Positions 3,089 through 34,100 of a stretch of DNA of 37,249 nucleotides are shown here, in pieces. This DNA is from Planctomycetaceae bacterium (GTDB lineage Bacteria; Planctomycetota; Planctomycetia; Planctomycetales; Planctomycetaceae). Position 1 is the first letter of the stretch. Every line of letters begins with the position of its first letter. Location of the stretch: positions 1-37,249 of the forward strand of contig JAKFUG010000009.1 of the NCBI GenBank assembly GCA_021732785.1, given 5' to 3'. Position numbers and translations under genes: made by a program. A model generated the notes under the pieces. It saw only the letters and a list, made by a program, of their open reading frames with translations, made no database searches and had not been told where the DNA came from.

Positions 3089-3201
3089 GCCCCCCCTGGG
3101 TAGGTTCTTTTTCGTGTTTTCCTTCTCCTGATGGACCACGGAAGCACCGGACGCGTGGACACAGTTCGCTCGGTTTAATTCGTTCGTTGACTTGATGGGT
3201 G

Positions 3202-12000: not shown

Positions 12001-14661
12001 TGCGCTTCGCTCCTCGTGCGATGAATGTTGCAACCACCGGCGGGACGGGATCGCTGGAGTTGATCGGCGCGCGCAAGGCCTGCGATCAACTCCTCTCCGC
12101 GGCCGGCGACGGCGGGCTCGTGTATTACGGCATCGAGTCCCAGGCCGCGGACGAGTGGGAAGAAGGCCTCGGGATTGTCCATGCCGGAGCGCCCCCCACG
12201 TTGCAACGGGTCGCCACGATCGAGTCCTCGAACGCCGACGCTTTGGTCAACTTCACCACGGGGACGAAGCTCGTCTTCATCACGTCTCCCTCGATCGTGC
12301 AAGCCGCGGCACATCTCCACAAGCCGCCCTGCCGGGTTGCGGTGACGACGAACGTCAACGTCGCTTCCGCGCTGGCTGCCGGCAGCTCGGCCGGCGGGGT
12401 GACTCTGGCAACCGGCGATCGAGTCTTCCTCGTCGGTCAAACGGATCCGATTCAAAACGGCCCTTGGCTCGCGCCGGCGACGGGAGCGGCAACGCGGCCG
12501 CTCGACTTTTACACCGGCGATACCTGTCGCGGGTCGATGGTGCAGATCCTTGAAGGATCCCACGCCGGCGAAACCTACATTTGCACGGCCACCGCGGCCG
12601 CGAAGATTGGGACCGACGGGCAAACCTGGGTGACGGCCTTCACGGGTTGGACCGGCTCGACCTCGATCACCACGCTCGGCACGATCACGACGGGTGTGTG
12701 GAATGCGACCGCGATCGCCGTTGCGTACGGTGGGACCGGAGCAACCACCGCGGCGGGCGCTCGAGCGAATCTCGGAGTCACGGCAACCGGAGCCGATACC
12801 GCGTATGCCTTCCGCTCCAACAACCTGAGCGACCTGGCGAACGCCAGCGCGGCCCGGACGAATCTCGGTCTCGCAATCGGAACCAACGTGCAAGCCTTCA
12901 ATGCGTCCCTTGCGGCGATCGCCGCGGGAACGTGGGCCGGGGCCTCGTCGATCACGACGCTCGGGACGATAGCCACGGGGGTATGGAACGGGACGTCCGT
13001 CGCCGTCGCCAACGGGGGCACGGGGGCAACCTCGGCCGCGACGGCTCGATCGAATCTCGGAGTCACGGCGACCGGAGCGGATACGGCTTACGCCTTCCGG
13101 GCGAATAACCTGAGCGACTTGGCCAACGCGGGCACGGCGCGGACGAATCTCGGAGTCACGGCGACCGGAGCGGATACGACTTACGCCTTCCGGGCGAATA
13201 ACCTGAGCGACTTGGCCAACGCGGGCACGGCGCGGACGAATCTCGGAGTCACGGCGACCGGAGCGGATACGACTTACGCCTTCCGGGCGAATAACCTGAG
13301 CGACCTCGCGAGCGCCTCGACGGCCCGGACGAATCTCGGCCTCGCGATCGGAACCAACGTACAAGCCTTCAATGCGTCCCTTGCGGCGATCGCCGCGGGG
13401 ACCTGGGCCGGGGCCTCGTCGATCACGACTGTCGGGACCATCACCTCGGGGACATGGAATGGTGGGGCGGTCCCTGTGGCCAACGGGGGCACGGGGGCCA
13501 TCTCGGCTGCGTCCGCGCGGTCGAACCTTGGCCTCGCGATCGGGACCGATGTGCAAGCGCAGAGCGGCAACCTCGCGGCCGTCTCCGCGGGGAGCTGGTC
13601 CGGAGCCTCGTCGATCATCACGCTCGGGACGATCACCACGGGCGTATGGAACGGGACGGCCCTCGATATCGCTTACGGTGGGACCAACGCCACGACGGTC
13701 GCGGGGGCGCGGACGAATCTCGGGGGTCACGGCGACCGGAGCGGATACGGCTTACGCCTTCCGGGCGAACAACCTCAGCGACCTCGCAAGCGCCTCGACA
13801 GCCCGGACGAATCTCGCCCTCGGGACGTCGGACGATGTCACCCACAAAACGGTCACGGGATCGGAGCCGACGACGGGCTCGGGAAACGGCGGGCTCGTCG
13901 CGACCACGGCAACGGCCGGCGGGAATGCCGGTATCCGGCTCGCGAGCGGGGGGACGAATCGCTTTCAAATCGGCTGCATTGGTTCGGCCGGCTCGACCGC
14001 GATGCGGTTTTATGTTTACGAAGATTCTGCCGAAGGGATGCGGCTCGACCGGAACCGCAATCTCGCGATCGGCACCACGGCTGCGCCGACGGCGGGGGCG
14101 AATTGTCTCGTCCTCGGCGTCGCGGGGACGGTCCTCACGCCGGCCGCGGCGCAATGCGGCATCTATGGCGAAACGATCACGCAGACCGAGCTGCGTGCGG
14201 TCGACAGTGCGGCCAATCGTGTGACGTTGACGCCTCACCCCGGTGAGATCATGGACACGCATATTCAGCGTTTGCACGACGTGCAGCTCGACCCGGTGCT
14301 TGTCCCCTGGGGATACCGCGCCTCGAACGATTTCCTCGGCATTGAAACGAAGGCCGACATCGCCGCGGCCCTGCGGTGTGTCGAGTTCCTCATGCGTGAA
14401 GCCGGCCGTTCGATCTCCCTCGTGTGGGAGCAACCCCTCGAAGGCGGTCCGGTCACCACCTGGGTTGAGCGGCACAACGCGGCCGCGGCGAAGTGGGACG
14501 TCGAGGCCGCGGCCCACGACGTCGCCCTGGCCCGCTGGGCCGCCCAACCGTTCTGGCTGCGTGACACGGTGTCGCGCCGGCCCGTCTCCATTGGTTCCCG
14601 TCCGGAAGCGACCGAGCCGCCGAAGTGGCTCGCCGCGCGTCTGGCACAATCGAAAGTCTGA
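12000..14661 (+). pseudogene. Repeat-rich tail fibre, +1 frameshift at 13722-13726
   Basis: A long fibre protein of about 886 residues if the frame is restored. The N-terminal 200 residues form a globular domain. Next come alternating modules: YGGTGATTAAGARANLGV-type units, TGADTAYAFRANNLSDLAN units, and AIAAGTWAGASSITTLGTI units, repeats well known in phage tail fibres. The C-terminal part has TGSGNGGLVATTATAGGNAG and MRFYVYEDSAEGMRLDRN, typical of the shaft before a tip, and an end domain with an Ala-rich helix. At 13722-13726 a run of five Gs replaces the GGAG seen in sister repeats and adds one base. The first frame then runs as nonsense to 14246, while the second frame continues the fibre to 14661. 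It could be sequence error, decay or length-switching. Confidence 0.75.
13048..13326 (+). repeat. 93-bp tandem repeats in the fibre gene
   Basis: Three consecutive units of 93 bases (31 codons) begin at 13048, 13141 and 13234. The second and third are almost identical, differing in a few bases near the end. The protein unit starts NLGVTATGADTTYAFRANNL. Frame is kept in each unit, so gain or loss of a unit would shorten or lengthen the fibre without breaking it. Confidence 0.85.
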
Positions 14662-18350: not shown

Positions 18351-18568
18351 CGCAACTCGTCTGGATGTTCGAAGGCTGGCAGGAGCAATCCTGGGATCAC
18401 ACGGCCGCGCTTCGTGAGACCATCGCGAACAGTTCGCCGAATCGATCGAAGCGCGGATATCAGGTCGAGCAGTTTCATCCGTTCGCCACCCGTCGACGGC
18501 GACGGAGCCGGCCGACTGGTGACATCTCGATTCTCAAAGCGATGCGACCGAAGGGAAGTCAACCATGA
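18290..18568 (+). CDS. Tail assembly chaperone, second frame (gpT-like)
   Basis: This -1 frame relative to the previous gene encodes LIECYRLAGILGLDPAPFTLAQLVWMFEGW and a tail with WDHTAALRETIANSSPN. That signature is usual for the second chaperone reading frame that follows gpG. No ATG, GTG or TTG starts it near its natural beginning (first ATG is at 18364). Expression could therefore come from a -1 frameshift from the upstream gene (a CCCCC run at 18336-18340 sits shortly before the stop) or from a non-standard start. The stop overlaps the tape measure start by 4 bases. The listed start is only where the natural-looking sequence begins. Confidence 0.55.
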   Translation, partial: LIECYRLAGILGLDPAPFTLAQLVWMFEGWQEQSWDHTAALRETIANSSPNRSKRGYQVEQFHPFATRRRRRSRPTGDISILKAMRPKGSQP

Positions 18569-20517
18569 GCAGCGCGCAGGGGATTCGGGCGGGGAAGGCG
18601 TATGTCGAGCTGTTCGCCGACAAGTCCGCCTTTATCCGCACACTCCGCTCGGCCGAGAAGGATCTCAAAGCCTTTGGCGGGAACGTGCTCAAAATCGGCT
18701 CCGGAATCGCGGGAGTCGGAGCGGCGATCATTGCCGGCCTGGCTCCCGCGGTTCTCTTGTTTGCGTCGGCCGGCGACCAACTCGACAAGATGTCGAAGCG
18801 AACCGGCGCGAGCGTCGAGGCGCTATCCGGTTTGGACTACGCCGCACAACGAAGCGGAGCGTCTCTCGAAGATGTCGAGAAGTCCATGAAGAAAACCCAG
18901 GATACGATGCTAAAGGCGACACTCGGCTCGGCGGAAGCCGGTCAAGCCTTTACGCTTTTGGGCCTGTCCGTCTCCCAACTCGCGAAGATGAAGCCCGAAG
19001 ATCAGTTTCTTCTAATCGGCGATCGGCTGTCGAAGATCAAGAATCCCGCAGCGCGGGCCGGCCTGGCGATCAAAGTCTTCGGTGAGGCCGGGACGAAGCT
19101 CCTGCCCATGTTCGAGAACGGGGCAAAGGGCGTCGGGGAGTTGATGAAGCGGGCCGAGGCGCTCGGCCTCGTGATGAGCACCGAAGATGCGACGGCCGCG
19201 GCAAAGCTCAAAGACGCGCTGGATGATGTAACCTCGACGACGTCCGGGCTCTACAAAATGATCGGAGCCGCCCTGGCTCCGCTGTTGACCGATCTCGCGC
19301 TCACGATCGCCGCCTCGGCTTCGAAGTGGATCTCCGAGAATCGGCCGTTGATCGTCACGATCGCGAAGATCGCCGCTGTCGTGCTCGTCGCCGGCGGGGC
19401 CATCATGGCCATCGGGGCCGGGATCATCGCGGCGGGGGCCGTCCTGGGGGGCCTGGCGACGGTGCTCACGACGATCGGGGCCGTGATCGGCGGGATCATT
19501 TCGGCCTTCGGTCTCTTGCTCACCCCCCTCGGGGCCGGAATCGCGCTCCTGGTCGCCGGGGTTGGCGCGTGGGCTTACTTCTCCAGAGCCGCCCAGGAAG
19601 CCATCGGATTCATCACGGACGCCTTCTGGGGACTCCTGGACGATGCGACGGCCGCTTGGGGCGGGATTGCCGACGCCCTGGCCGCGGGAGATCTCGAAGC
19701 CGCGGCAAAGATCGCCTGGCTCACGGTGCAACTGGAAGTGCAAAAGGTGGTCAACTGGATCTCGGAGCGCTGGCACAAGTTCACGAGCGACTTCCTCAAT
19801 ATGTGGGATGTCGCGACGGGCTTCCTCGGATCGTTGTTCATTGACGGCTTCGCGGCGATCGAGACCGCATGGATCCACACGACCGGCTTTCTGGCCGATG
19901 CCTGGGAAGTCGTCAACTCCGGTTTTCAATCCTCGTGGAAAGGGACACAAAACTACATTGCAAAGGGGTTCGGCTTCCTCATTGCAAAACTCGAAGGCCT
20001 CGATCCCGCGGCCGTGATGGGTGAACTCGACGCTGAGATCGCACGCTCACAAGCCGCGGACGCTGAGGGGCAGGACAAGCGCGTCGGTGATCGAGACGCG
20101 GAGCGGCGGAAACGGCTCGCGCAAATCGAAGCCGATCGACAGGAGTCACAAGGCAACTTGAAAGGCGATCAAGCGACCAAGACCCAGCAACGGCAAGCCG
20201 GCTATGACGCCTCGGTTTCCCAGTCGCAAGCGGATCTCGACAAAGCCCGGAAGGAATGGTCGGACGCAATCGGAGCCGCGGCCGGCAAGCGGGCCGCGAT
20301 GGAAGGGAACCGCACAGCGTCGAAAGTCCAGACGCCGTCGGGGGGTGAGTTTGATTTCTCGTCCGCCAAACAATCGGTGAGCGGCACGTTCTCCGCGGCC
20401 GCGGCCGGGAGCTTGGCCGGATCCGGTGTGATGAACACGATCGCCGAGGCCACTCAAGAGACGGCCCGACAAACGAAGCGGATCGCTGAGAAGACGGAAA
20501 TGAGGTTCGGCACATGA
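18565..20517 (+). CDS. Tail tape measure protein
   Basis: A 650-residue protein that sets siphophage tail length and is threaded through the tube. It has an N-terminal helix region (VELFADKSAFIRTLRSAEKDLKAF), a first hydrophobic segment at about 50-72, and a long hydrophobic stretch at about 265-345 rich in Gly and Ala (VVLVAGGAIMAIGAGIIAAG and onward), as in membrane-inserting tape measures. From about 500 to 580 it is a charged helical region (DAERRKRLAQIEADRQESQG). It begins 4 bases before the previous stop, with AAGGGAAG upstream. The stop overlaps the next ATG (ATGA). If the usual 0.15 nm per residue holds, the tail would be near 100 nm; that is an inference. Confidence 0.85.
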   Translation: MSSAQGIRAGKAYVELFADKSAFIRTLRSAEKDLKAFGGNVLKIGSGIAGVGAAIIAGLAPAVLLFASAGDQLDKMSKRTGASVEALSGLDYAAQRSGASLEDVEKSMKKTQDTMLKATLGSAEAGQAFTLLGLSVSQLAKMKPEDQFLLIGDRLSKIKNPAARAGLAIKVFGEAGTKLLPMFENGAKGVGELMKRAEALGLVMSTEDATAAAKLKDALDDVTSTTSGLYKMIGAALAPLLTDLALTIAASASKWISENRPLIVTIAKIAAVVLVAGGAIMAIGAGIIAAGAVLGGLATVLTTIGAVIGGIISAFGLLLTPLGAGIALLVAGVGAWAYFSRAAQEAIGFITDAFWGLLDDATAAWGGIADALAAGDLEAAAKIAWLTVQLEVQKVVNWISERWHKFTSDFLNMWDVATGFLGSLFIDGFAAIETAWIHTTGFLADAWEVVNSGFQSSWKGTQNYIAKGFGFLIAKLEGLDPAAVMGELDAEIARSQAADAEGQDKRVGDRDAERRKRLAQIEADRQESQGNLKGDQATKTQQRQAGYDASVSQSQADLDKARKEWSDAIGAAAGKRAAMEGNRTASKVQTPSGGEFDFSSAKQSVSGTFSAAAAGSLAGSGVMNTIAEATQETARQTKRIAEKTEMRFGT

Positions 20518-21305
20518 GCGCACTCGTGCATAAGGATTTCGAGGCCGAGGGCTTCGCCGGCCGCGACCTGGCTGAGCTGCCGGTGAAGTATTGGGTGAAG
20601 GGGCCGTCTGACTACTTCGAGGCCCGTGCGGAGCTGATCGCCCAGGCGGACCGTGTCTACGATGGCCTCATCGCCGCGAAGTATCACGTCCTGCGGGTTG
20701 GTCCGACCACGTGGGAAGGCATGGTGATCTATGAGCCCGCTCCCCAGGATGAATGGGAATTCAATTTCGAGATCGCGACCGAGCAAGTGCTCTTTACCCA
20801 GGCGCTGCAGAACGTCGGCAACTTCGCCCCCGCTGGTCAAACGGCTCCGGACTTCAAGGGCTCGATCGGCGTCACGCGCGATGGGATACAAGGGACACAG
20901 GTCCCGATCTCGACCTACGCCTGGTCAGAGACGCACTTCTTCGATCGCGCCTTCATCGACGATTCCTATCGATCGATCCTGGCCAACTGTGCCGGCAAGA
21001 TGAACGATGCCGTGTTTCGTCGCTTTCCCAAAGGGGATGTGATCTTCGACGGTGCGACGGGCTCGCTCTCGCGCCGGTCTGAGCAATGGCAAGTCAACTA
21101 CAAGTTTCGCCGATCGCCGAACGCGACGAACCTCGTGATCGGGAACATCACGGTCGCGTCGAAACTCGGCTGGGATTATCTGTGGGTGCATTATGTGGAG
21201 TTCCCCGACATCACGGCGGGCCGGCTCGTGAAGATCGCCGGGAGCGCGCACGTCGATCGCGTGGTGAACTTCGCCGACTTCAATGGAATGAGGCTCCCGC
21301 AATGA
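20514..21305 (+). CDS. Distal tail region protein
   Basis: A 263-residue protein with no recognised family. It has RDLAELPVKYWVKGPSDYFEARAE, then a beta-rich middle (WEGMVIYEPAPQDEWEFNFEIATEQ), VPISTYAWSETHFFDRAF and an ending with WVHYVEFPD and VDRVVNFADF. It follows the tape measure, where distal tail or tail-tip hub genes normally lie. It overlaps its neighbours by 4 bases each side and has GAGG upstream. Confidence 0.5.
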   Translation: MSALVHKDFEAEGFAGRDLAELPVKYWVKGPSDYFEARAELIAQADRVYDGLIAAKYHVLRVGPTTWEGMVIYEPAPQDEWEFNFEIATEQVLFTQALQNVGNFAPAGQTAPDFKGSIGVTRDGIQGTQVPISTYAWSETHFFDRAFIDDSYRSILANCAGKMNDAVFRRFPKGDVIFDGATGSLSRRSEQWQVNYKFRRSPNATNLVIGNITVASKLGWDYLWVHYVEFPDITAGRLVKIAGSAHVDRVVNFADFNGMRLPQ

Positions 21306-22114
21306 GCTACGGCGTCCCCGTCTCCCCTGGGCAAGCCTATGAGCCCTCGGCCCGACAAACGAATCAGGTGCAACGGCTCTTGCAGCAGCAAGGCGGGATC
21401 ACGGGCGGCGGGCCGATCAATGAACCGCGGCCATTCAATTGGATCTATGCACGCAATGACACGGGCGAGACCCTCGGTCAGTTTGCGCCGGTCTGCCTCG
21501 ACGGGATTCTCTTCCTTCCTGACGATGATGCGCAGCCTGGCTCGGTCAATTACTTTCGCACGCAACCCGTCATGAAGGCCCGCAAGCCCGACTGGCGTTT
21601 CGGTCAACTGTGGGGCCTGACGCTCGAACCGATCGGCCGCATGAACGACGCCGGTCTGTGCGGCCGCGTGCTGCTGCAAGGGATCGTCCCCGTGCGATTG
21701 ACGGGCAATCATCTTCTTCCCGTCGCCGGCCCGGAGATCAACAACGTCGCGACGCTGAAGACCGGCCGCGGCGATGCGCTGGTGATGTGGCAAGAGTCGA
21801 CCGACGATGAGCGCTGGGGATTGGTGAGCCTCGGCGGAGGGCAAGGGCTCATTCTCGAAGGGGAGATCGTCACCGGGAGCGATGCGCCGAGCGATGGGAA
21901 AACCAATCCCACGTCGGGCACGTTCCACGCCTGGCGTTATGTCGACGCCCAGCTCATCGGGGCGGATCCGCGGGAGATGGAAGCGATCGACGAGGATCTG
22001 ACTTACGTCAATCGGGATCCGTCCCTCGACCCCGAGGCCGGGGCCTACTGCTTGGCGCAGTGGATCAATGGCGAATGGCGTCTGATCTGGGTGGGCTGTG
22101 CGTTTAAGGGCTGA
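21302..22114 (+). CDS. Tail-associated protein, unknown
   Basis: A 270-residue protein with a low-complexity start (QTNQVQRLLQQQGGITGGG) followed by a beta-rich body: FNWIYARNDTGETLGQFAPVCL, GLCGRVLLQGIVPVRLTG, GDALVMWQESTDDERWGLVSLG. The pattern of repeated beta-strands with Gly turns suggests a virion surface or tip protein. The ATG at 21302 overlaps the previous stop. No enzyme motif was seen. Confidence 0.45.
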   Translation: MSYGVPVSPGQAYEPSARQTNQVQRLLQQQGGITGGGPINEPRPFNWIYARNDTGETLGQFAPVCLDGILFLPDDDAQPGSVNYFRTQPVMKARKPDWRFGQLWGLTLEPIGRMNDAGLCGRVLLQGIVPVRLTGNHLLPVAGPEINNVATLKTGRGDALVMWQESTDDERWGLVSLGGGQGLILEGEIVTGSDAPSDGKTNPTSGTFHAWRYVDAQLIGADPREMEAIDEDLTYVNRDPSLDPEAGAYCLAQWINGEWRLIWVGCAFKG

Positions 22115-22118
22115 ATCT

Positions 22119-22508
22119 ATGGGACGCCCGTGTCGCTGTGGTTGCCTCCACGGCTGCAACTGCCTCTATGGTCCGGAGTCGCTCACGGCGGACATCAACG
22201 GCACGAACTACGTCATGGAGCGAATATACACCCAATTTCCGCTTGGGTCAGAGATCATTGAATACTTCGCGCTGGTCGACTGGGGCTTCGGCGCGACCGG
22301 ATTTGTCGGCGCGCTGTGTGCCGGCAACGGCTCTCGATCGTTCTCGGCAGGGATCGTCGCGCCGAATTCCAGTGCGGGCGGGGAAGTGCTGGCTTTCGCC
22401 CTATGCCCTGAGCCGTGGTTTGTCTCGGAGTTCTTTCTCCTCGTGATCGCATCGGACGACCCCGTCGTGTCTCACCGAATCAACATTCTCATCACGGAAT
22501 CCGCATGA
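22119..22508 (+). CDS. Small protein with N-terminal Cys cluster
   Basis: A 129-residue protein whose first 15 residues carry five Cys (C5, C7, C9, C13 and C15, with His11), a probable metal-binding or disulfide knot. The rest is a beta-rich hydrophobic domain (FALVDWGFGATGFVGALCAGN) ending RINILITESA. It lies at the end of the late operon, 4 bases after the previous stop, and its own stop overlaps the next start. Function unknown. Confidence 0.55.
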   Translation: MGRPCRCGCLHGCNCLYGPESLTADINGTNYVMERIYTQFPLGSEIIEYFALVDWGFGATGFVGALCAGNGSRSFSAGIVAPNSSAGGEVLAFALCPEPWFVSEFFLLVIASDDPVVSHRINILITESA

Positions 22509-22834
22509 CCTCGATTCGCGAATGGTTGGCGGGGACGACGGACGACGGCGTCGCTTTGCCGCTTGATCGCGTGCGGTGGTATCGTCGCAAAGTCGCCGAG
22601 ATGGAGAGCGGGACCGCGCCGGCCTGGGAAACCTGCCGGCATCGCGGCGAAGTGTCCAATCTCCGGAAGGCCAACCTCTGCGGTCGCAACAACGAATTGT
22701 TTCCGGTGTATCGGTGCGCTCTGCATGGGGAATGTGTGCTGACCCGCTTCTGCGAGAAGCAACCGGAGCGGCTTTGCCACCTCTGTGAGGACGCGGTTGA
22801 TCACTTGTCGGGGAACGAACCGCCCCAGGCCTGA
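22505..22834 (+). CDS. Small Cys/His-rich zinc-binding-like protein
   Basis: A 109-residue protein with Cys and His pairs: CRHRGE, NLCGRN, YRCALHGECVL, FCEK, and RLCHLCED. The pattern C-x-H then C-x3-H-x2-C and C-x2-C is common in small proteins at the end of late operons in planctomycete prophages and would suit two zinc sites. It overlaps the previous gene by 4 bases. Its 3' end overlaps the convergent PDZ gene by 34 bases. Confidence 0.6.
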   Translation: MTSIREWLAGTTDDGVALPLDRVRWYRRKVAEMESGTAPAWETCRHRGEVSNLRKANLCGRNNELFPVYRCALHGECVLTRFCEKQPERLCHLCEDAVDHLSGNEPPQA

Positions 22835-23697
22835 TAGGCGTCTAAGACTTGCTGGAGACGCATCTGCTCAATTGTTTCGAGAACGCGGTCAACCGATCCA
22901 TCCTTGCCGGCCATGCGGACCGTGATCTTGCGTTCGCCGAGTACCTTCAGCACGGCGTCGACCAGCGTCTTCGGCGCGGCAACATCGGCACGCTCTTGCA
23001 GAGACCTTGCACCGAGAACGTCCCGATCCCATTTGAGGAATCCCACGTCGACGGTTTGTCGCACTTCTCCCGAGTGCAGAATCAGCCCTTGGCAGAAGAT
23101 CCACTCCTCGCCGTTGTATCGAATGATCACGCGCAGGTTGTGGGCTTTCCCGTCGGTCACTTGAAAGTAGAATTCCATGCCCGTCTCCTTCCGGGGGGAA
23201 TCTTCCCCCCGGTGATGGGCGAACGTCACACCGCGGATGTCGTCGCGGTTCAGCTCCATCGCGGCCTTGGCGTTCTCCCCAACGGTCGCGACCTTCACAT
23301 CGACCTTCTTCGGCTTCCCCCAGTTTGCTTTTTGTGCGCCGGCAACTAACGGGGCAACCTGTAGCGCCACTTCGCTTCCGACACCGGCTTCCTTCACAAG
23401 GTCGACGAGGGTCTTGTGATCCGGGATCGGCTTTCCGTTCGCGGTGACGATGATGTCGAGGGGCTTCACTCCGGCCAGCGCGGCGGGGGAATGTGGGAGC
23501 ACGCCGAGGACGATACCACCGGCCCGTTTCGACTTCGGCAACGATGGATTACTTTTCGAGATGTCGGCGTAGTCGGTCGCCGCCATAATCCCCAGGCCGA
23601 TCGCCGGCTCGTTCAACCGATCGTCGGCGGCTCCGCAATGCGTGAGCGTCGACAGCACAACAATCGCGACACCGAAGCCGTATCTCACTCCCGCCAT
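22801..23697 (-). CDS. Secreted PDZ-domain protein inside the prophage edge
   Basis: A 298-residue protein. Residues 1-24 form a signal peptide with a possible lipobox (STLTHCGAA; C21). A PDZ domain at about 58-115 contains GIVLGVLPHSPAALAGVKPLDIIVTANGKPI, the peptide-binding carboxylate loop region. The C-terminal half has a beta-rich part (GMEFYFQVTDGKAHNLRVIIRYNGEEWIF) and a helical end. It is the only minus-strand gene in the phage region, sits between the late operon and attR, and is not a standard phage protein. It may be a lysogenic-conversion gene (moron). AAAGGG precedes the start. Confidence 0.75.
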   Translation of the reverse strand: MAGVRYGFGVAIVVLSTLTHCGAADDRLNEPAIGLGIMAATDYADISKSNPSLPKSKRAGGIVLGVLPHSPAALAGVKPLDIIVTANGKPIPDHKTLVDLVKEAGVGSEVALQVAPLVAGAQKANWGKPKKVDVKVATVGENAKAAMELNRDDIRGVTFAHHRGEDSPRKETGMEFYFQVTDGKAHNLRVIIRYNGEEWIFCQGLILHSGEVRQTVDVGFLKWDRDVLGARSLQERADVAAPKTLVDAVLKVLGERKITVRMAGKDGSVDRVLETIEQMRLQQVLDAYQAWGGSFPDK

Positions 23698-23782
23698 CGT
23701 GAGGCCCTTTGAACGCTATGGGGTAGTTGGGATCTGTTCAGAAGACTAGCGACACGACCGAACCCCTCGCAAACGAGACGCA

Positions 23783-23799
23783 TGATTTCGTCGAAATCA
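23783..23799. promoter_or_regulatory. Palindrome site E (perfect)
   Basis: The perfect palindrome TGATTTCG-T-CGAAATCA lies between the PDZ gene start (86 bases away) and attR (53 bases away). It could control the PDZ gene promoter, which would read leftward from here. Confidence 0.65.
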
Positions 23800-23851
23800 G
23801 CATCATGCTCCCTCGTGGCGACCAGAAGAATCAGCACAACCGAACCGATTA

Positions 23852-23898
23852 CACGACTGAAAATCGTGGTGTCGGCGGTTCGATCCCGCCTCTGGCCA
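23852..23898 (+). tRNA. 3' fragment of tRNA-Phe(GAA), attR scar
   Basis: The sequence keeps the tRNA-Phe 3' half. The anticodon stem is CACGA (23852-23856) with TCGTG (23864-23868), and the loop CTGAAAA gives anticodon GAA. The T stem GGCGG/CCGCC carries loop TTCGATC, and the acceptor strand is TCTGGCC plus discriminator A. No matching 5' acceptor strand or D arm lies upstream, so it is not a full gene. This is the residue left when a phage integrates into a tRNA gene and brings its own copy of the 3' end. It marks the right prophage boundary. Confidence 0.8.
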
Positions 23899-23930
23899 CT
23901 GTTCCATGGGGATCGCCCAGCGGAATGCAA

Positions 23931-23969
23931 AATCCTGAATGCCTCGTCGGAGGCATTCAGGATTTTTTT
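23931..23969 (+). terminator. Intrinsic terminator downstream of the tRNA fragment
   Basis: A perfect 15-bp stem (23931-23945 with 23950-23964) with loop GTCG is followed by a run of Ts. Probably the original terminator of tRNA-Phe, left on the host side of attR. Confidence 0.9.
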
Positions 23970-24193
23970 ATGGGAAGAGGTTCGAAGTTGCCAAACTGGA
24001 ATCTTCCTCGGTACGATCGTTCACCGCTGGCACCCAAGGTTGAAGAGCAGTCGTAATAAGCGGTGCTGACACGTCTTGGAGATGGTTTACCGTTCGGATC
24101 GGATTCCGAGTCACACAGTTTCTTATTGTCTGACGAAACGAACCAAGACAGACATCACGATTGCGGGTGGCTGTGCAGAGCGGGACGATCAAA

Positions 24194-27100
24194 ATGGTTG
24201 ATTCCTGGTGGCGTGTTTTCACTGCGGCGCTGAAGCGGTCTCTTGCTCCCAGGCAGCCACGCCGTCGTAACCGGCGACATCGCGATTTCTCTCGTTACAT
24301 CGCGGTTTGCATTCTGGAGCGCCGGGAACTCCTCGCGGGTTTTACACCGGGCAATCTGGTGATCAGCACCATTGGCACCGGTGCGACGCTGGATGCGTCG
24401 GCCACGGTCGTCACGTTGCGTGAATATGGCCTCGATAGCGCCGACACACCGACAACGGCAACGCTCGTCAATTCCCTTTCCGCGCCCTCGGCTAACGCCG
24501 GCAGCAATTCCGGGAATTTGACCAACGCAGGTTCCGCTGCGACCGAGGGAACGCTGAATCTCTCGACGGATGGCAGCAAGCTCACTCTGCTGGGGTACGA
24601 CGCGCCGGAAGGCCTGGCAAATCTCACCGCTACAACGGCGTCGGCCAACAACCGTTCGATTGGAGTTGCCGATGCGTCCGGCACACTCACCGTCGGTCCG
24701 CGATTGACGGATGCCTTCTCCACCAGCAATGCCCGCGCCGCCGCCTCCGTCGATGGCAGCAAGTTCTGGGTTGGCGGCAACACGGGCGTGCGCTATGTCG
24801 GCACGAATGCGGCGGCCCCCACGACTTCGACTGCGCTGATTACATCCAGTCCGCCGAGCACGCGCTTTGTGACCATCGCCACGGATCAAACGGGAAAGCA
24901 ATTCCTCGTCGGCAATTCGGCGGCGACCGTCTTCGTTTGGACGACGGCCTCGTTGCCGACCACGGCGACGGCTCAACAGTCGTTAACGCTCACCGGTTTG
25001 GGCTCGGACCTCGGTGAAATCGTGATGCTGGACCGGTCGCCGACGTTGGGCGCAACCGGTCTGGGCGGGATCGATACCATCTACGTTACGAATGGACAAA
25101 GCTCGACGACGGGTTCCATTTCCAAATATGAATGGACCGGATCTGCGTGGGCGTCGCGAAGTTCCCGCAGCTATACGAACGGATTGAATGGTCTCACGGC
25201 GCGGGTCACCGAAGCGGGGAACGTGCAGCTCCTGGCAACGACTCGCTTGAGCAATGGCGACAATCAGCTTGTGACGCGAATCGATACCAGCGCTTTCGGC
25301 AGCGATATTTCACTCGGATCGTACACCGTCCTGGCCACCTCCGGCGCGGGTTATGGCTTTCGCGGCGTGGCGTTCACTCCCGATGAAGCGATCTCGGGAT
25401 CGTTGACGCCGGGAACCGCGGCCCTGGCGAATGCCGGTGGCGCACCGGTCAATCTGCTCGGCGACGTCACCTGGAACGATGGGTCGACGTTCAATGGCGG
25501 TTCGCTCACGATCTCCGGGACTGCCAACGGGGATGTCCTGTCTCTTGCCAATGTCTCCGGGAAGATTACGACCAGCGGGAATGCGGTTCTGTTTAACGGG
25601 ACAATCATCGGCCAGTTCTCCGGTGGAAATGATAACAATGTGTTTCGCGTCGATTTCAATTCCCGCAACGACGTGAATCGCGTCAGCAAGGCGATGGTCG
25701 AACAACTGCTGGAACAACTGCAATTTACCACGATTTCCGGAGCGTCCAGTCGCTTGTTGTCGGTCAATTTGAAGCAGGCCGCCGACCAGGATTCCCACGT
25801 TGAAAGCTTTACGGCGGCACAAACGATCGCCATCAACCAACCCCCGTCGCAGGTTCAACTGACCAACGCGACGACGAGTCTGGCGGAAAATACGAACGTG
25901 CCGATGCGTTTGAAGTTGGCGGACATTACCGTAGTCGACGACAACCGCGGTGTGAATGTTCTCGGTCTGACGGGCGCGGACGCCAATGCCTTTGAGATCG
26001 TCGGACAGGAACTCTTTTTGAAGGCCGGGACGGTCCTCGATTACGAGAGCAAGAGTTCGTATTCCGTCACGGTGACGGTGGATGATCCCGCGGCGGGAAC
26101 CGCTCCCGATGCCACGGTCTCCTACACGCTCACGCTCACCGATCTGGCCGAACCGCCCGAAATCGGGGTCGCGGTCGCAACGGTGGATGTCCCCGATGGC
26201 ACCGCGTTCGATTTCGGTTCCGTCGATGTCGGTGTAACCGTCTCGCGGACGTTCTCGGTGACCAACACCGGCATCGGCCCGCTCACACTGCAACCGGTCA
26301 TCATCACCGGCAGCGCCTTTTCGCTCGCCAGCTCGAATTTCACGGCGGGCCAGTCGCTCGCCGTCAACGCCACCGTGACCTTCACGATCGCGATGAATAC
26401 CTCAACCGCGGGGACGAAGTTCGGAACGGTGACGTTCTTGAATGATGATCTGGATGAAGCCGTTTACAACATCGACCTGAATGGGACGGTGACGGAACCC
26501 GTGATCGTACCGGTCTTGCTCGACGATGGTGACGCGGGTTTCAGTTTAACGGGATCGTGGGAGACGCAGACCGGCGGGTATGGCAACGACACTCGTGCCG
26601 CCGGCGGCAATGACGGGACCAAGACGGCGACGTGGGTCTTTACCGGGTTAACCTCCGGGACCTATCAGATTGATGCGACGTGGTTACCGGGAAGCGACCG
26701 GGCGAGCAATGCCCCGTATGTCGTTCGCGATGGTGTCGGCGGTTCGATCCTGTCGGTGTTCGGGGTGAATCAACGGGTGCTTCCGTCGGGGGCTCGAAGC
26801 GATGGGGGGCGACCCTTTGCGCATCTGGAAACCGTGACGGTCACGAACGGAACGCTCGTTGTCGGCCTGTCGAACAACGGGACGAACGGGGCGATTTTCG
26901 CGGATGCCGTGCGGATCGAACGCCTGCCGATACCACCGAGTGTGCCCCGCCTCGAAGTGAAAGACGGCGCGACCGCGGTGTGGAGCGGTACGACTTTGAG
27001 TGTCGGCTCAGCGCCGCAGGGGTCCGTGGCGTTGACGAAGACGCTGACGGTGCGGAATGCGGGAATCGCGGACCTCCTATTGCAACCGATCTCGCTGACG

Positions 27101-28504
27101 GGAACCGGTTATACGCTGGTGACGCCGAACTTCACGGCCGGTCAGGTGCTGGCCCCGAATGCCACGGTCAATATCACCGTGCAGTTGAGCACGGGAGCGG
27201 TGGGGACATTCCCGGGGACGTTGTCCTTTGGCCACAACGCGGGCAGCCCCTTTGTGCTCCCGTTGAGTGCCACGATCTCGCCATTGGATCTGGCGCTGGT
27301 CGATGACGGTGACGCCGGTTTCAGTTTGACAGGAGCATGGGAGACGCAGACCAGCGGGTATGGCAACGACACGCGTGCCGTCGGCGGCAGTGACGGGACG
27401 AAGACGGCGACGTGGACATTCACCGGACTCACTGCCGGGACCTACCAGATCGATGCGACGTGGTCACCGGCCGGCGATCGGGCGAACAATGCGCCCTACA
27501 TCGTCCGCGATGGTGCGGGCGGTACAATCTTGTCGGCGTTCTCGGTGAATCAACGGGCGCTTCCCTCGGGGGCGCGCAGCGATGGCGGGCGACCCTTCGC
27601 GCACCTTCAAACGGTAACGGTGACGAACGGAACGCTGGTGATCAGCCTGTCGAACAATGGGACGAACGGGGCAATTTTTGCGGACGCGATGCGAATCGAA
27701 CGGCTGTCCCCGGTGCCGTTCGCTCCGCGTCTCGATGTGAAGAACGGCGCGACCCCCTTGTGGAATAACGGCAATCTCAATTTCGGAACGGGCACGCAAG
27801 GGGGGACGGCTCCGACCAGAACGATCACCGTGCGGAATACCGGGACCGCGGATCTGGTGCTGCAACCCCTCTCGCTCACAGGAACCGCCTTCTCGCTGGT
27901 GACGCCGAATTTCACGGACAGCAAGGTCCTCGGTCCGAATGAAACGGTCGATATCGTCGTGCAATTGAGCGCGGCAACCGCGGGGTCATTCGCCAGCACG
28001 TTGTCGTTTGGCCATAACGCCGGCGGTTCGTTCGTGCTGCCGCTGTCCGGGGTCATCACCACTCCGCCGCCGGTCGGTTTGGCGATCATCGACGATGGCG
28101 ATGCCGGCTTTGCCTTGACCGGCGGTTGGGAGTCGCAAAACGGATCGGGCTATGGCGCGGATGTGAAAGCAGTGGGTGGGAACTCCGGGACGAATCAGGC
28201 GGCATGGACATTCGCGGGGTTAACCGCGGGGACATACCAGATTGATGCCACGTGGACGCCGGGCAGCGACCGGGCGAGCAATGCGCCATACAAATTCCTG
28301 GACGGCGTCGGCGGGACGATCATCGGGAATGCCGTCGTCAATCAGCGCGTGCTCCCCGCCGGGGCGGATTCCGCGGGCGGGCGACCGTTCGCGTCGATTG
28401 GCACGGTGACCGTAACGGGCACGACGCTCGTCGTCCAATTGGCGAACGCCGCGACCAACGGAGCCATTTTTGCGGATGCCATCCGCATCTTCCGCGTCGT
28501 TTAG
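24194..28504 (+). CDS. Large secreted modular protein (LEPR-XLL, cadherin-like, choice-of-anchor D, golvesin-like)
   Basis: A 1436-residue extracellular protein. Residues 41-49 (LERRELLAG) fit the planctomycete LEPR-XLL N-terminal sorting motif after a basic region. The next part (about 60-420) is rich in Ser, Thr and Gly with SxDGSK units and may be a beta-propeller. A cadherin-like domain lies at about 550-650 (TSLAENTNVPMRL, LDYESKSSYSVTVTVDD). Then three pairs follow, each a choice-of-anchor D Ig-like domain plus a golvesin or xanthan-lyase-CBM-like domain that begins DDGDAGFSLTG and ends with AIFADAVRIERL-like sequence. Golvesin-like modules begin near residues 774, 1035 and 1296. ATG 24194 was chosen because the LEPR motif then lies near the N-terminus. 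Role likely in surface or extracellular matrix binding. Confidence 0.8.
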   Translation: MVDSWWRVFTAALKRSLAPRQPRRRNRRHRDFSRYIAVCILERRELLAGFTPGNLVISTIGTGATLDASATVVTLREYGLDSADTPTTATLVNSLSAPSANAGSNSGNLTNAGSAATEGTLNLSTDGSKLTLLGYDAPEGLANLTATTASANNRSIGVADASGTLTVGPRLTDAFSTSNARAAASVDGSKFWVGGNTGVRYVGTNAAAPTTSTALITSSPPSTRFVTIATDQTGKQFLVGNSAATVFVWTTASLPTTATAQQSLTLTGLGSDLGEIVMLDRSPTLGATGLGGIDTIYVTNGQSSTTGSISKYEWTGSAWASRSSRSYTNGLNGLTARVTEAGNVQLLATTRLSNGDNQLVTRIDTSAFGSDISLGSYTVLATSGAGYGFRGVAFTPDEAISGSLTPGTAALANAGGAPVNLLGDVTWNDGSTFNGGSLTISGTANGDVLSLANVSGKITTSGNAVLFNGTIIGQFSGGNDNNVFRVDFNSRNDVNRVSKAMVEQLLEQLQFTTISGASSRLLSVNLKQAADQDSHVESFTAAQTIAINQPPSQVQLTNATTSLAENTNVPMRLKLADITVVDDNRGVNVLGLTGADANAFEIVGQELFLKAGTVLDYESKSSYSVTVTVDDPAAGTAPDATVSYTLTLTDLAEPPEIGVAVATVDVPDGTAFDFGSVDVGVTVSRTFSVTNTGIGPLTLQPVIITGSAFSLASSNFTAGQSLAVNATVTFTIAMNTSTAGTKFGTVTFLNDDLDEAVYNIDLNGTVTEPVIVPVLLDDGDAGFSLTGSWETQTGGYGNDTRAAGGNDGTKTATWVFTGLTSGTYQIDATWLPGSDRASNAPYVVRDGVGGSILSVFGVNQRVLPSGARSDGGRPFAHLETVTVTNGTLVVGLSNNGTNGAIFADAVRIERLPIPPSVPRLEVKDGATAVWSGTTLSVGSAPQGSVALTKTLTVRNAGIADLLLQPISLTGTGYTLVTPNFTAGQVLAPNATVNITVQLSTGAVGTFPGTLSFGHNAGSPFVLPLSATISPLDLALVDDGDAGFSLTGAWETQTSGYGNDTRAVGGSDGTKTATWTFTGLTAGTYQIDATWSPAGDRANNAPYIVRDGAGGTILSAFSVNQRALPSGARSDGGRPFAHLQTVTVTNGTLVISLSNNGTNGAIFADAMRIERLSPVPFAPRLDVKNGATPLWNNGNLNFGTGTQGGTAPTRTITVRNTGTADLVLQPLSLTGTAFSLVTPNFTDSKVLGPNETVDIVVQLSAATAGSFASTLSFGHNAGGSFVLPLSGVITTPPPVGLAIIDDGDAGFALTGGWESQNGSGYGADVKAVGGNSGTNQAAWTFAGLTAGTYQIDATWTPGSDRASNAPYKFLDGVGGTIIGNAVVNQRVLPAGADSAGGRPFASIGTVTVTGTTLVVQLANAATNGAIFADAIRIFRVV
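26515..28504 (+). repeat. Tandem gene-internal repeats, about 780 bp
   Basis: DNA encoding the golvesin-like and choice-of-anchor D pair repeats with a period near 780 bases. The DDGDAG units start at about 26521, 27301 and 28087. The first two units are much more alike than the third. Confidence 0.8.
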
Positions 28505-28533
28505 GACGTGGCTACGGAATCGGTAAATCGCTG

Positions 28534-29370
28534 CTACGGGTTCAGATCGCTCTTGGCGTCCGTGCCCGATTCCCGCGCCTTCATGCTCACCGTGATTTCG
28601 GTCAGGGGGCGGAAGTTTTCGCGCGGTTCCTGGGCGTCTTTGATGGACCGGGTAATCCTGGACGTCCATGCGGCAACTCCGAACGGGACTTGCTCGCTCG
28701 CCCACACTTTGGATTCGAGTTCCGTCTTGCTGCTGGGACGTTCGATCATCGTGGTCCCCATGAGGACGTCCGCTTTCACATCGGGCAAGCCGACTTCGGG
28801 ATCGACGCCTTGTTCGCTCACTTGAAAATCGCGGCAGTAACCGAGCGCGATCGCCAGGGGGTAAAGTTTCAACGCTCCCTTTTCCAGATCGCGGGGCATC
28901 CCCTTCCCTACCTGACGGAAGCCTTTGACGACGGGCGTGAAACTCGCGGGGATACCATCGGTCGACTTCGTCTCCGCGGTGACCAGCGTTTCGGGAACGA
29001 GCACCTTGTAAATTTCGAGCCCGGTCGTGCCGGTATCGATTTTACCGTCCGCTTCGCGACCCCGTTCGACCTTGATTTCAATCCAGCGGCACATCACCTT
29101 TTCGCCCTGATAGTCGGCTTCTTCGCTGCCGACGGACTTAATGGTGACGTGTTCCGCCCAGGGGGGAATTTCGAGTTTCCCGGTGGCGGTATTCGGACGA
29201 ATTTCGGTTTGTCCGAACGTTCCTTCGTACCGCACCCAGGTGCCATCCGGGGGCAACCGCAGGACCAGACCCTGCGCACTCGCGGTGCGTTCGAGGCCTC
29301 CGCATGCGCAAACGAGCAGCAGCAACCATTCGGCACGAAACATGAGGCGGAATCCTTGCGGCATGTCCAA
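28534..29370 (-). CDS. Secreted protein of unknown function, planctomycete type
   Basis: A 278-residue protein. A hydrophobic N-terminal segment (AEWLLLLVCACGG) looks like a signal peptide, perhaps a lipoprotein with the Cys at the end. The body has GTWVRYEGTFGQTEI, VTIKSVGSEEADYQGEKVMCRWIEIKVE and ALALGYC-like segments, giving a beta-rich fold seen in uncharacterised planctomycete proteins. A second ATG nine codons in (29343) has a better ribosome site (AAGGA) and is an equal start candidate. It is convergent with the modular protein gene, 29 bases apart. Confidence 0.6.
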   Translation of the reverse strand: MDMPQGFRLMFRAEWLLLLVCACGGLERTASAQGLVLRLPPDGTWVRYEGTFGQTEIRPNTATGKLEIPPWAEHVTIKSVGSEEADYQGEKVMCRWIEIKVERGREADGKIDTGTTGLEIYKVLVPETLVTAETKSTDGIPASFTPVVKGFRQVGKGMPRDLEKGALKLYPLAIALGYCRDFQVSEQGVDPEVGLPDVKADVLMGTTMIERPSSKTELESKVWASEQVPFGVAAWTSRITRSIKDAQEPRENFRPLTEITVSMKARESGTDAKSDLNP

Positions 29371-29546
29371 CGTCCAGCGTAACGTTCGCTATGAGTGTGG
29401 CACAGGGGCCAAGGGAGCACAAGGCGATTTTCGGACCCCACGGCACGATCGCTGCAATCCCAGGTCCGTCGGTGTCCGGTGTTGCGATCAATCATCCCTG
29501 CGAACTCGTCCAATCTTGTTTCCTCTCGGATCGATACGGTCAATTC
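29371..29546. promoter_or_regulatory. Divergent intergenic region
   Basis: 176 bases separate the starts of the minus-strand secreted protein and the plus-strand M28 peptidase, so at least two promoters pointing outward must lie here. I could not pick out clear -35/-10 elements or a hairpin. Confidence 0.4.
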
Positions 29547-31076
29547 ATGAATCGAATGCGGAAAGTGCTGTCGGCGACTCGCGGGTTCGTAACGGCCCTG
29601 TGGATTGTAGGATTCGTGCGACTTGCAACGGCCGCCGATGCGACCGATCCGCTTTCCCGGATTGACGTCGCTGGTTTGAAGCGGCACTGCAGTTTCCTCG
29701 CCGCGGATGCCTTGGAAGGCCGTGGTGCAGGAACGCGCGGCGGACAAGCCGCGGCGGCGTATCTGGTGAGCGAACTCAAACGAATGAATCTCGCTCCGCC
29801 TCCGGGATGGAAGGATTATCGCCAACCGTTCGGTAACCAGTACGCCAACGTGATCGCCGTGATTCCCGGTCGGCATGCGACGTTGAAGGACGAATGGATT
29901 GTTCTCGGCGGGCATTATGATCATGTCGGCTATGGCACCGCGGAGAACAGCAACGGCCCGGTCGGGAAGATTCACAACGGTGCGGATGACAATGCCAGCG
30001 GCACTTCGCTGCTGTTGGAGTTGGCGTCCGCTTTCTCCGATCCCGCGTCCTCACTCGATCGCGGTGTGATCATCGCCTTTTGGGATGCCGAAGAAATCGG
30101 GCTGCAGGGGAGCAAGTATTGGGTCAGCCATCCGACGGTTTCCCTTTCCCAAGTGAAGCTGGCGGTGAATCTCGACATGATCGGCCGCATGCGCGACGAT
30201 CACGTCGCCGTGATGGGTTGGCGTTCGGCGGCGGGATTACGACGGGCCATGGTGGACGCGAATACTGATGTCCCGTTGCGCTTCGGTTTTGACACGGCCG
30301 TCACTGCCGATAGCGATCATTATTCGTTCTACGCTGCGAGGCGACCGGTCATTCACTTCGACACCGGCAAGCATGTGGACTACCACCGGCCTTCGGATGA
30401 CGTGGAAAAGGTCAACTTTGAAGGGCTCGTCCGCCTCGGTCGGTTCGTGGCACGGATGGTGATGCACGCGGCAAATATGCCGACACTGCCCGAGTTCCGG
30501 CAGGACGCAGTGAATGAACCGGCGCTCGCGAAAGTCGACCCGAAAGCGCGGTTGTCACCCCCGGTTCGCCTGGGCATCCGCTGGACTCCGCAACGATCGG
30601 ATGATGACCGGCATCTCGACGTCGCGGATATCATTCCCAACACCCCGGCATCCAAAGTCGGCATTCGCAAGGGCGATCGGTTGCTGAAATTCGATCGCTG
30701 GAATGGGGGAACACTGGACTCATTTCGCGAAGCGATTTCCGTGGCTCCGGCCGAAGTTGAGATGGAATGGCAATCGCCCGGTGAAGCGGAAACGAAATCG
30801 GCCCGGATTCAACTCGCCGGAGATCGCGTGCGGTTGGGAATCACCTATCGCACCGACCCCGCCCTGCCCGGCTGCGGCGTGATCAGTACGGTCATGTCGT
30901 TCACACCTGCCGACCGCGCGGGACTCGAACCGGGCGATGTGCTGTTGTCGCTGGATGATCGGGAACTCCCCCCGTTCGCGGAGTGGGGAAGACGCTTGCC
31001 CGCCGACTCCGCACCGATCACGCTGTCCTTCGAGCGGAACGGACAACCGAAGCGCGTCACAATTGAACTGCGCTGA
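29547..31076 (+). CDS. Secreted M28 metallopeptidase with two PDZ domains
   Basis: A 509-residue zinc peptidase, likely an aminopeptidase acting outside the cytoplasm. It has a signal peptide at about 1-30 (RKVLSATRGFVTALWIVGF). M28 zinc ligands and catalytic residues are visible: H123 in GGHYDHVG with catalytic D125, D147 in GADDNASG, E182-E183 in WDAEEIGL, D210 in NLDMIGR and H280 in DYHRPSDD. All the expected positions are present. The C-terminus contains two PDZ-like regions, about 335-420 (DIIPNTPASKVGIRKGDRLLKF) and about 428-509 (TPADRAGLEPGDVLLSLDD). The ATG at 29547 was chosen because it puts the signal peptide first; the open frame starts earlier at 29391. Confidence 0.85.
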   Translation: MNRMRKVLSATRGFVTALWIVGFVRLATAADATDPLSRIDVAGLKRHCSFLAADALEGRGAGTRGGQAAAAYLVSELKRMNLAPPPGWKDYRQPFGNQYANVIAVIPGRHATLKDEWIVLGGHYDHVGYGTAENSNGPVGKIHNGADDNASGTSLLLELASAFSDPASSLDRGVIIAFWDAEEIGLQGSKYWVSHPTVSLSQVKLAVNLDMIGRMRDDHVAVMGWRSAAGLRRAMVDANTDVPLRFGFDTAVTADSDHYSFYAARRPVIHFDTGKHVDYHRPSDDVEKVNFEGLVRLGRFVARMVMHAANMPTLPEFRQDAVNEPALAKVDPKARLSPPVRLGIRWTPQRSDDDRHLDVADIIPNTPASKVGIRKGDRLLKFDRWNGGTLDSFREAISVAPAEVEMEWQSPGEAETKSARIQLAGDRVRLGITYRTDPALPGCGVISTVMSFTPADRAGLEPGDVLLSLDDRELPPFAEWGRRLPADSAPITLSFERNGQPKRVTIELR

Positions 31077-31159
31077 CATCGCCGCCGCATGCGGCTTCGG
31101 TTATCCTGCCTGTTGCCATTGTTGGTGCGGATTCCGAACGTGCTTGCGGGATGGGCTGA

Positions 31160-34100
31160 ATGACGCGGTGCTTTTTTGTTTTGATTGTGGTGACCGCCAG
31201 TGGGGGACTCACCGCCGCGGAACCAGCGGCCCCGATAGATTTCAGCCGCGATGTGCAGCCGATTCTGTCGAACCATTGCTGGAGTTGTCACGGCCGGGAT
31301 GACGGTGCCCGCGAAGCCGGTTTGCGGCTCGATCGACGTGACACGGCCGTGGCTCCGTTGAAGAATGGGCAGACGGCAATTGTCCCCGGCGATCCTGGCA
31401 AGAGTGCCATCATTACGCGCATCGAAGCCCATGACGATTCGCTGATGCCCCCTTTGGAATTCGGCAAGCCGTTGTCAGAGAAACAGCGAGCCACATTGAA
31501 ACAGTGGATCGCCGAAGGCGCACCCTACGCGCAGCATTGGGCGTTTGTACCACCGCAACGCCCTTCTCTGCCCGATGTCAAACAAACCGCATGGCCGCGG
31601 AATGCGATCGACCGATTTGTGCTGCATCGCCTGGAAACGGCCGGGTTATCGCCGTCCGTTGAAGTCGAGCGCAGCTCATGGTTGCGACGGGTAACGCTCG
31701 ATCTGACCGGCTTGCCCCCCACGCTCGTGGAACGGCAAGCGTTTCTCAATGATCAGACGACGGAAGCGTATGAAACCGTGGTGGATCGCTTGTTAAAATC
31801 CCCACGGCATGCCGAGCGGATGGCGATGCACTGGCTCGACGCCGCACGCTACGCCGACACGAACGGCTACAACAATGACGAATTCCGCACACTGTGGCCG
31901 TGGCGCGACTGGGTAATCGACGCGTTTGCCCGTAACATGCCGTACGACCGGTTTCTCACCGAGCAACTGGCGGGAGATTTGCTACCGGACGCAACGCTCA
32001 GCCAGAAGGTGGCGACGGGGTTCAACCGCAACCACGTGCTGACGACCGAAGGCGGGATCATCGAAGAAGAGTACCGCGTGGAGTATGTCGCCGACCGGGT
32101 TCACACGACGGCGACCGTGTTCCTCGCGCTCTCGCTGCAATGTGCCCGCTGTCACGATCACAAGTACGATCCGTTCTCGCAGCGCGACTATTACCGGTTC
32201 GCCGCGTTCTTCGACAATATTCCCGACAAGGTTGTGCCCTACAGTCAGGGCCGCATGGCGGAACCGTTGCTGAAAGTGCCTTCCGCAGCGCAGCAGGAAG
32301 CGCAACGTCGACTGGAAGCCCGCAAGGACGAACTTGCGGCGTCGTTGAAAGCGCGGGCCAATGACATCGACGCCGATCTTGCCAGGTGGGAAGCATCGCT
32401 GACGCCGGAGCAGATCGCGAAAGCCGGGCCCGTCGGACTCGTGGCGCATTTCCCGCTCGATGAAACCGGGGGGACCACCGTCGTCAATGCCATTGCGCCA
32501 GACCAGATCGCGTCAGTGCAGGGCAAATTCTCTTCCGTCGAAGGCAAGCTTGGCACCGCGCTCGATTTCGACGGCACGACATTCATCGCCGCGGGTGAAA
32601 CCGGCGCGTTTGAAAGCGACCAGCCGTGCTCCTTCGCCGCATGGATTTATCCCACCAGCACGCAGCCGAGCACGGTGCTGTCGAAAATGGATGAAGCCAA
32701 TGCGCATCGCGGGTACGACGTGATCCTCGAAGGCGGAAAAGTCTGCAGCCACTTCGTACATCACTGGCCGGACAAAGCGTTCAAGGTGATGAGCAAAAAT
32801 CCGGTATCACCGCACGCCTGGCATCATGTCGTCATCACCTACGATGGTTCCCGCAAAGCGTCCGGCATGAAGATCTACGTCGATGGTCAACCGCAGGAAT
32901 TCGATGCCACCACGAACAACGCCCTTGATGGCACCCTTGCGACCGACAAGCCCTTCCACATCGGCCGGCGACATGCGTCCGCGCCGTTTGCCGGCCGGAT
33001 TGATGATGTGCGCGTGTATGCCACCACGTTGTCCGCCGAGGAAGCCGCCCAGCTTGCCAAGGGAGAATCGCTCAGCGGCTTGAAAGAAATCCTTGCCATC
33101 AAGACGGCACAGCGAACCGCGGATCAGATGGCCCGCGTGAAGTCGTACTATCTCGATCAAGTCGATGGGCCGTCCAAAGCGTGGAAAACCGAACTCGCCG
33201 ATGTTCCGAAGAAACTCGCGGAACTCGACAAGACGATTCCCGTCACCATGGTGATGGGCGAAATGACGCCGCGGCGGCCGACGCACATTCTGAAACGCGG
33301 GCAGTACGATCAGCCGGGCGATGCCGTTCAGCCGGGTGTACTTCCGGCGTTTCCAGGATTGCACGCCGAAGCCGCCAGCCGACTCGATCTCGCTCATTGG
33401 TTGACCGATCCGCAACACCCGCTGACGGCGCGCGTCGCGGTCAATCGCTGGTGGGAAATGCTGTTTGGAACCGGACTCGTCGAAACGGCGGAAGACTTCG
33501 GCGTGCAAGGAGCCTTGCCGACACACCCGGAACTCCTCGATTGGCTGGCCGCGGAACTGGTCGCACAGAAATGGAGCACCCGCGCCGTTCTGAAGCAGAT
33601 CGTGTTGTCGGCGACGTACCGACAATCGTCCCATGCCACGCGCGCCATCATCGAACACGACCCGCACAATCGTTTGCTGGCACGGGGACCGCGCTACCGA
33701 CTGCCGGCGGAAACCGTGCGTGATAATGCTCTCGCCATCAGCGGGCTGCTCGTTGATCAAGTCGGTGGTCCCAGCGTGAAGCCGTATCAACCGGAAGGCT
33801 TGTGGGAAGACGTCTCGGTGGAACGACGCGAGAAATATGCTCCCGACCTGGGTGACGGATTGTATCGCCGCAGTATGTACACGTTCTGGAAACGGACCTG
33901 TCCGCCGCCCGGCATGGCGGCGTTCGATGCCCCGGATCGGGAGACGTGCGTGATTCGTCGCGCCCGCACCAACACACCGTTGCAAGCGCTCGTGTTGCTC
34001 AATGATCCGACGTATGTGGAAGCCTCCCGCAAGTTCGCCGAACGGGTCATGTTGTCGGCCACATCCCCTGCCGAGCGGTTGGAGACCGCCTTTGTATTGG

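Follow-up and report, generated by a model that had tools for sequence, protein, structure and literature searches.

Gene content of the contig

The window, by which we mean the whole stretch of DNA that was analysed, is the entire contig C59 (37,249 bases) of an assembly of 6.69 Mb in 96 contigs with an estimated completeness of 99.63%. Phage genes occupy its left part and genes of chromosomal type its right part, and half of a tRNA-Phe gene lies between them. The features are as follows.

1-523 and 562-1084: arms of two IS copies in inverted order, the second copy being at the contig end; 91% complementary
360-1898, minus strand: IS transposase ORF
3199-5328, plus strand: terminase large subunit, gpA type
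5942-7444, plus strand: phage portal protein, lambda family
8766-9731, plus strand: major capsid protein, GP7 family
11563-12000, plus strand: weak match to a tail completion or neck protein family (E 1.4e-5)
12000-14246, plus strand: tail-type protein (major tail and tail fibre families, also head decoration)
18565-20517, plus strand: tail tape-measure protein
22801-23697, minus strand: PDZ-domain protein, lying after the rightward ORFs and before the half tRNA
23820-23851, plus strand: flank on the prophage side, weakly paired as acceptor (6/7) and D stem (4/4), or alternatively part of a longer hairpin with the 3' half
23852-23856, plus strand: left arm CACGA, pairing 5/5 with TCGTG (23864-23868), where the core is proposed to end on the prophage side
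23857-23899, plus strand: 3' half of tRNA-Phe(GAA), recognised by sequence match to tRNA-Phe genes; proposed attR core, chromosome-derived
23929-23969, plus strand: strong hairpin with a T run, terminator-like
24161-36914, plus strand: chromosomal side, with a Golvesin_C protein, an M28 peptidase, a PSCyt1/PSCyt2/PSD1 protein, a SASA esterase and a DUF1501 protein

The phage packaging, head and tail genes are all located 5' of the half tRNA and read rightward, and many ORFs amid them have no family match. The contig begins inside the facing IS copies, which with their 523-nt arms are the likely cause of the stop of the assembly. Relatives of the terminase were found in 53 of the 170 genomes of the family, the source genome being counted. 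When viral contigs were searched with the capsid, terminase and portal proteins, distant relatives only were obtained (at most 48% identical), and the terminase was matched by 17 phage records, none of them over 80% of the terminase. The PDZ-domain protein was matched in 25 of 40 genomes, its own included, and the matches outside its own gene were partial and confined to the PDZ region. This gene (22801-23697) falls within the border proposed for the prophage.

On the right side, several of the families (among Golvesin_C, M28, PSCyt/PSD1, SASA and DUF1501) are typical of planctomycete chromosomes. The 1447-aa protein adjoining the half tRNA (24161-28504) has Golvesin_C and HYDIN-type Ig-like domains as well as a sub-threshold cadherin match. 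The best DNA match of the window at 31.2-36.9 kb was found in genome G003 at 5.82 Mb (73-77% identical), which stands about 0.42 Mb from the tRNA-Phe of that genome, and the right side of the window gave no match to the region downstream of the tRNA-Phe of genome G001. Because of this distance and the lack of a match in G001, synteny does not show that the right flank once adjoined a tRNA-Phe gene.

Half of a tRNA-Phe gene and the hairpin downstream

The 3' half of tRNA-Phe(GAA) extends from the anticodon loop through the base beyond A73 (23857-23899). The anticodon arm at 23852-23868 (CACGA-CTGAAAA-TCGTG) contains the anticodon GAA and pairs at 5/5 positions, as does the T arm at 23874-23890 (GGCGG-TTCGATC-CCGCC). 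The variable region is GTGTC, and the 3' strand of the acceptor stem (TCTGGCC) together with A73 occupies 23891-23898. In a whole-genome search, the intact tRNA-Phe gene of a same-genus genome was 92% identical to the window half over 50 bp with an E value of 6.5e-14, which excludes a chance match, and 39 of the 42 bases of the 3' half are the same in that gene. The preliminary description, made from the sequence alone, had read the locus as the 3' half of tRNA-Phe(GAA) with perfect anticodon and T stems, and this was borne out. The close likeness to tRNA ends at the anticodon loop.

The half was matched in 27 of 40 genomes, the source genome (G000) counted in. Taking one best match per genome, ARAGORN called tRNA-Phe at this match in 25 of the 26 other genomes; in the remaining one (L006) a contig end truncates the match. 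ARAGORN called no tRNA in the window, the visible part of the prophage included. The locus of the half is thus below the cut-off of tRNA finders, since it received no ARAGORN call and stayed under the threshold of the Rfam tRNA model.

Downstream of the half, a hairpin of 17 pairs at 23929-23966 (-28.3 kcal/mol, z -7.6) leads into a T run. The strong terminator announced in the preliminary description is therefore present as a strong hairpin with a T run, but the hairpin at 23929-23969 is absent from the list of a consensus terminator scan, presumably because the T run lies partly within the stem. The regions 3' of the G001 gene and of a corresponding half in G003 fold too, although more weakly (z -3.1 and -1.6, respectively). 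We infer that the hairpin is the former terminator of the tRNA gene.

The same layout in related genomes and viral contigs

In G003, which belongs to the same family, the intact tRNA-Phe gene adjoins a PF00589 integrase, and a half copy of the same orientation is located downstream at a distance of 39.6 kb. The intact gene and the half of G003 share 44 identical bases from the anticodon loop onward and differ on either side. In G036, the intact tRNA-Phe and a half are 17 kb apart in the same direction and the integrase adjoins the half. In G008, the intact gene and the half are on separate contigs, with the half at a contig end. ARAGORN called no tRNA at the halves of G003, G036 and G008.

Among viral contigs, 30 stretches matched the half-tRNA pattern, and seven of them (L296, L298, L299, L303, L307, L309 and L314) had no called tRNA-Phe in the available DNA. 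The 5' sides of these seven lone halves differ from each other. A PF00589 integrase is present within 1.4 kb of the half in five of the seven, on the 3' side in four and on the 5' side in L307, where the match is barely over the cut-off. Pfam was run on one ORF near the half in six of the seven stretches; the ORF of L299 had no Pfam match, and no candidate ORF was seen near the half in L296. A search of the viral contigs for the attachment sequence of the window found nothing. When the 32 window proteins were compared by tblastn with seven relative loci, no match was obtained, and a comparison with 36 loci gave one match, which came from the chromosomal side. The halves in the relatives and the viral contigs are what an integration site located in the anticodon loop of tRNA-Phe would leave.

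Search of the source genome

A tRNA-family search of the source genome returned 42 matches (150 of 154 candidates scored), of which ARAGORN named 41, none of them tRNA-Phe; the letters of the 42nd (C24:41321-41383) do not make it a tRNA-Phe either. In G001, this search returned 43 matches, with tRNA-Phe at 73 bits. The match at C24:41321-41383 (L070) scored 51.4 bits over model positions 5-66 and has CAC in its anticodon loop by eye; its acceptor stem is seemingly lost and it has no ARAGORN call. When the tRNA-Phe of G001 was used as a DNA query, the best match in the source assembly was the window half, followed by tRNA-Ala (E 1.6e-5) and tRNA-His (E 2e-4), and the further matches had E values of 0.1 or worse. 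A pattern for the 5' half of tRNA-Phe, with up to three mismatches allowed, was not found in the source assembly. Since neither an intact tRNA-Phe gene nor its 5' half was found in the assembly, the left end expected for the prophage either falls in a gap of the assembly or is missing. The Leu tRNAs with TAG and CAG are likewise absent among the 42 matches, and the recovered tRNA set may therefore be incomplete. In the comparison made for an empty site, the genes upstream of the intact tRNA-Phe of G001 match contig C10 of the source genome near 47.9 kb, where there is no tRNA match, and the DNA downstream of it gave no match in the source genome (40 of 72 candidates scored).

The integrase domain was matched 21 times in the genome and never on the window contig, and none of the matches could be linked to this prophage, whose left part lies beyond the contig. 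Ten of the 21 matches are within 2 kb of nine of the 42 tRNA matches. These nine are Ser (three), Val (two), Leu, Asn, Arg and His tRNAs on contigs C1, C4, C16, C20, C45, C53 and C81, with no tRNA-Phe among them. It follows that tRNA genes serve as integration targets in this genome, which seems to carry many tRNA-borne elements, a count that comes from one genome. The integrase on C4, which adjoins tRNA-His and is the closest in the genome to that of G003 (40%), was considered as the partner of the half and dropped; the scar is in tRNA-Phe.

Origin of the half tRNA

The half tRNA is probably the attR of a prophage of an ordinary kind, integrated at the anticodon loop of a tRNA-Phe gene. A tyrosine integrase would have recombined the phage site with the host tRNA-Phe inside the anticodon loop, leaving the 3' half of the host gene and its terminator on the right side. 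The phage would have supplied its own 3' half, by which tRNA-Phe would be rebuilt at the left end. This reading is supported because the similarity breaks at the anticodon loop, phage genes are present 5' of the break and the same layout occurs elsewhere. The attR at a prophage edge in the preliminary description accordingly agrees with the phage genes on the 5' side, the break at the anticodon loop and the layout in two relatives, but the left end was not seen. For the integrase using tRNA-Phe that it had postulated, integrases near the intact gene in G003 and near the halves in G036 and viral contigs speak in favour, whereas the prophage's own integrase was not found. The complete tRNA-Phe with an adjoining integrase that it had expected to the far left, in the same direction, is a reasonable prediction; it was not found in the assembly, whose window contig stops short of the left end of the prophage, and neither was an intact tRNA-Phe free of phage genes, which would have spoken against it. 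Counting against the attR reading are the lack of an attL, of an intact tRNA-Phe and of a 5' half in the assembly, the lack of an integrase on the contig, an anticodon-stem swap that was not seen in relatives, a flank that is more tRNA-like than those of nine other halves, and a synteny that is of no help.

The anticodon stem CACGA/TCGTG differs from CAGGA/TCCTG of the relatives by the swap of one pair from G-C to C-G, which is a double change. The arm pair, with at most one mismatch, was searched in 170 genomes of the family and gave 17 matches, of which the 16 lying elsewhere than in the window are something other than tRNA-Phe according to ARAGORN. The variant stem occurs in at least 120 stretches of other bacteria, many of them with Thermoleophilia-type record titles, and the 15 inspected by eye among these were all tRNA-Phe.

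The 5' flank bears on another explanation, in which a complete tRNA-Phe gene has decayed at this locus, as a pseudogene or an old duplicate, and no recombination scar is involved. The preliminary description had reported no 5' half, and indeed no recognisable one is present, but the 5' side is weakly cloverleaf-like. The Rfam tRNA model gave 26.8 bits for 23824-23893, under its cut-off of 29, and 23820-23851 allow an acceptor strand with 6/7 pairs and, around a non-standard loop of 14 bases, a D stem with 4/4 pairs, in addition to the 5/5 anticodon stem. Among random sequences, 0.44% reach this level of acceptor and D pairing, as do 252 of the 37179 positions in the window; if the anticodon stem is required too, the figures are 8e-5 of random sequences and five window positions. 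The flank aligns with the 5' half of tRNA-Phe in a patchy and gapped manner, with extra bases, and the score of this alignment was equalled by 0.3% of 5000 37-mers from window positions 20000-30000. All these values would suit a decayed gene. The flank forms 10/11 acceptor and D pairs versus 5-7/11 in nine other halves, while a tenth half is cut by a contig end and is not counted in this range. The anticodon-stem pairs in the other halves number 0 to 5, with 5 in the tenth, and the search pattern had pre-set one anticodon-arm base in the seven viral halves. The Rfam tRNA model did not match the halves of G003 and G036, but it gave 26.4 bits for the half of G008 at the contig end, which is close to the 26.8 bits in the window.

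Since the tests of flank pairing were chosen after the sequence had been seen, the pairing is only a weak sign for a pseudogene. Decay would moreover be expected throughout the gene, yet 39/42 bases of the 3' half are identical and most of the 5' half has changed, with additional bases and a D loop of 14 bases. As read from the letters, the drawn D loop has no GG for docking with the T loop, and a base other than T stands at position 8. A decayed gene would have to lie at the prophage end by coincidence. The jump at the anticodon loop from 39/42 identity to a largely rewritten flank favours recombination, and a decayed gene appears unlikely to us.

The flank and the 3' half can also be folded as one long hairpin (z -1.5 over 86 bases and z -3.1 over 49 bases), which might resemble what inverted integrase-binding arms could form. 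A match to flank positions 23825-23849 in G009 (24/25 bases, E 1.8e-4) was set aside as probably due to chance, as it barely extends and no tRNA was called in the 20-kb stretch that contains it. This recurrence of the flank bases sits at L110:9950-9974.

It is highly improbable that the half is the attachment site of another element, now lost, and that the adjoining prophage genes arrived separately. Many integrases of the genome adjoin tRNA genes, and the visible part of the prophage, which is cut at the left by the IS copies, contains no integrase, as such a history would allow. However, the orientation of the half suits the visible prophage, and nothing at 22114-23852 looked like the boundary of a further element in an incidental reading. 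A working, divergent tRNA-Phe, the sole one of the genome, is most improbable: no other was found in the 99.6% complete assembly, pairing of the stems is feasible and tRNA-Phe of other bacteria has the same anticodon-stem variant, but the locus falls under the Rfam cut-off without an ARAGORN call, the drawn D loop and position 8 are not as in tRNA, and the absence of the two Leu tRNAs leaves room for an unrecovered tRNA-Phe.

With the half taken as attR, the probable right border of the prophage is fixed to within a few bases, and this border tells which genes are viral.

Comparison with known systems

In tRNA-dependent lysogeny (PMC10865867), a phage inserts itself in a tRNA gene, and frequently at its anticodon loop. 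The attP of such a phage has only about 10 bp in common with attB, against 30-45 bp at usual attachment sites, and a replacement tRNA is provided by the phage genome. The window resembles this system in the probable integration of a phage in a tRNA gene, which would likewise have taken place at the anticodon loop. In contrast to it, no tRNA was called in the visible part of the prophage; the shared length would be read from attL or attP. It is very unlikely that insertion of the prophage left the sole tRNA-Phe gene broken and that the cell lives by a replacement tRNA-Phe in the left part of the prophage, beyond the contig, with the cloverleaf-like attR as a by-product. If true, this would be tRNA-dependent lysogeny outside Actinobacteria.

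The attR reading also resembles the Islander collection of tRNA-gene islands (PMC4383910), in which a 3' fragment is the general rule, being left by 3760 of 3919 islands, and the site is anticodon-centred in 2083. The window shares with these islands a far end marked by a 3' fragment of the tRNA and, as inferred here, the crossover at the anticodon loop. It differs from them in that its partner end, an intact tRNA with an integrase, is absent from the assembly, so that the island cannot be closed.

The element of G003 and the window have the same target gene, the same place of crossover and a far-end half in the same direction. Kinship of the phages is not implied, however, as none of the 32 window ORF products matched the surroundings of the G003 element (tblastn, 1e-5), and the integrase was seen in the G003 element whereas none is present on the window contig. 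Taken with the relatives and the environmental viruses, the window points to repeated use of the tRNA-Phe anticodon loop for integration. Insertion into such a gene is an ordinary route, well known for viruses of this kind, and the general picture is unchanged.
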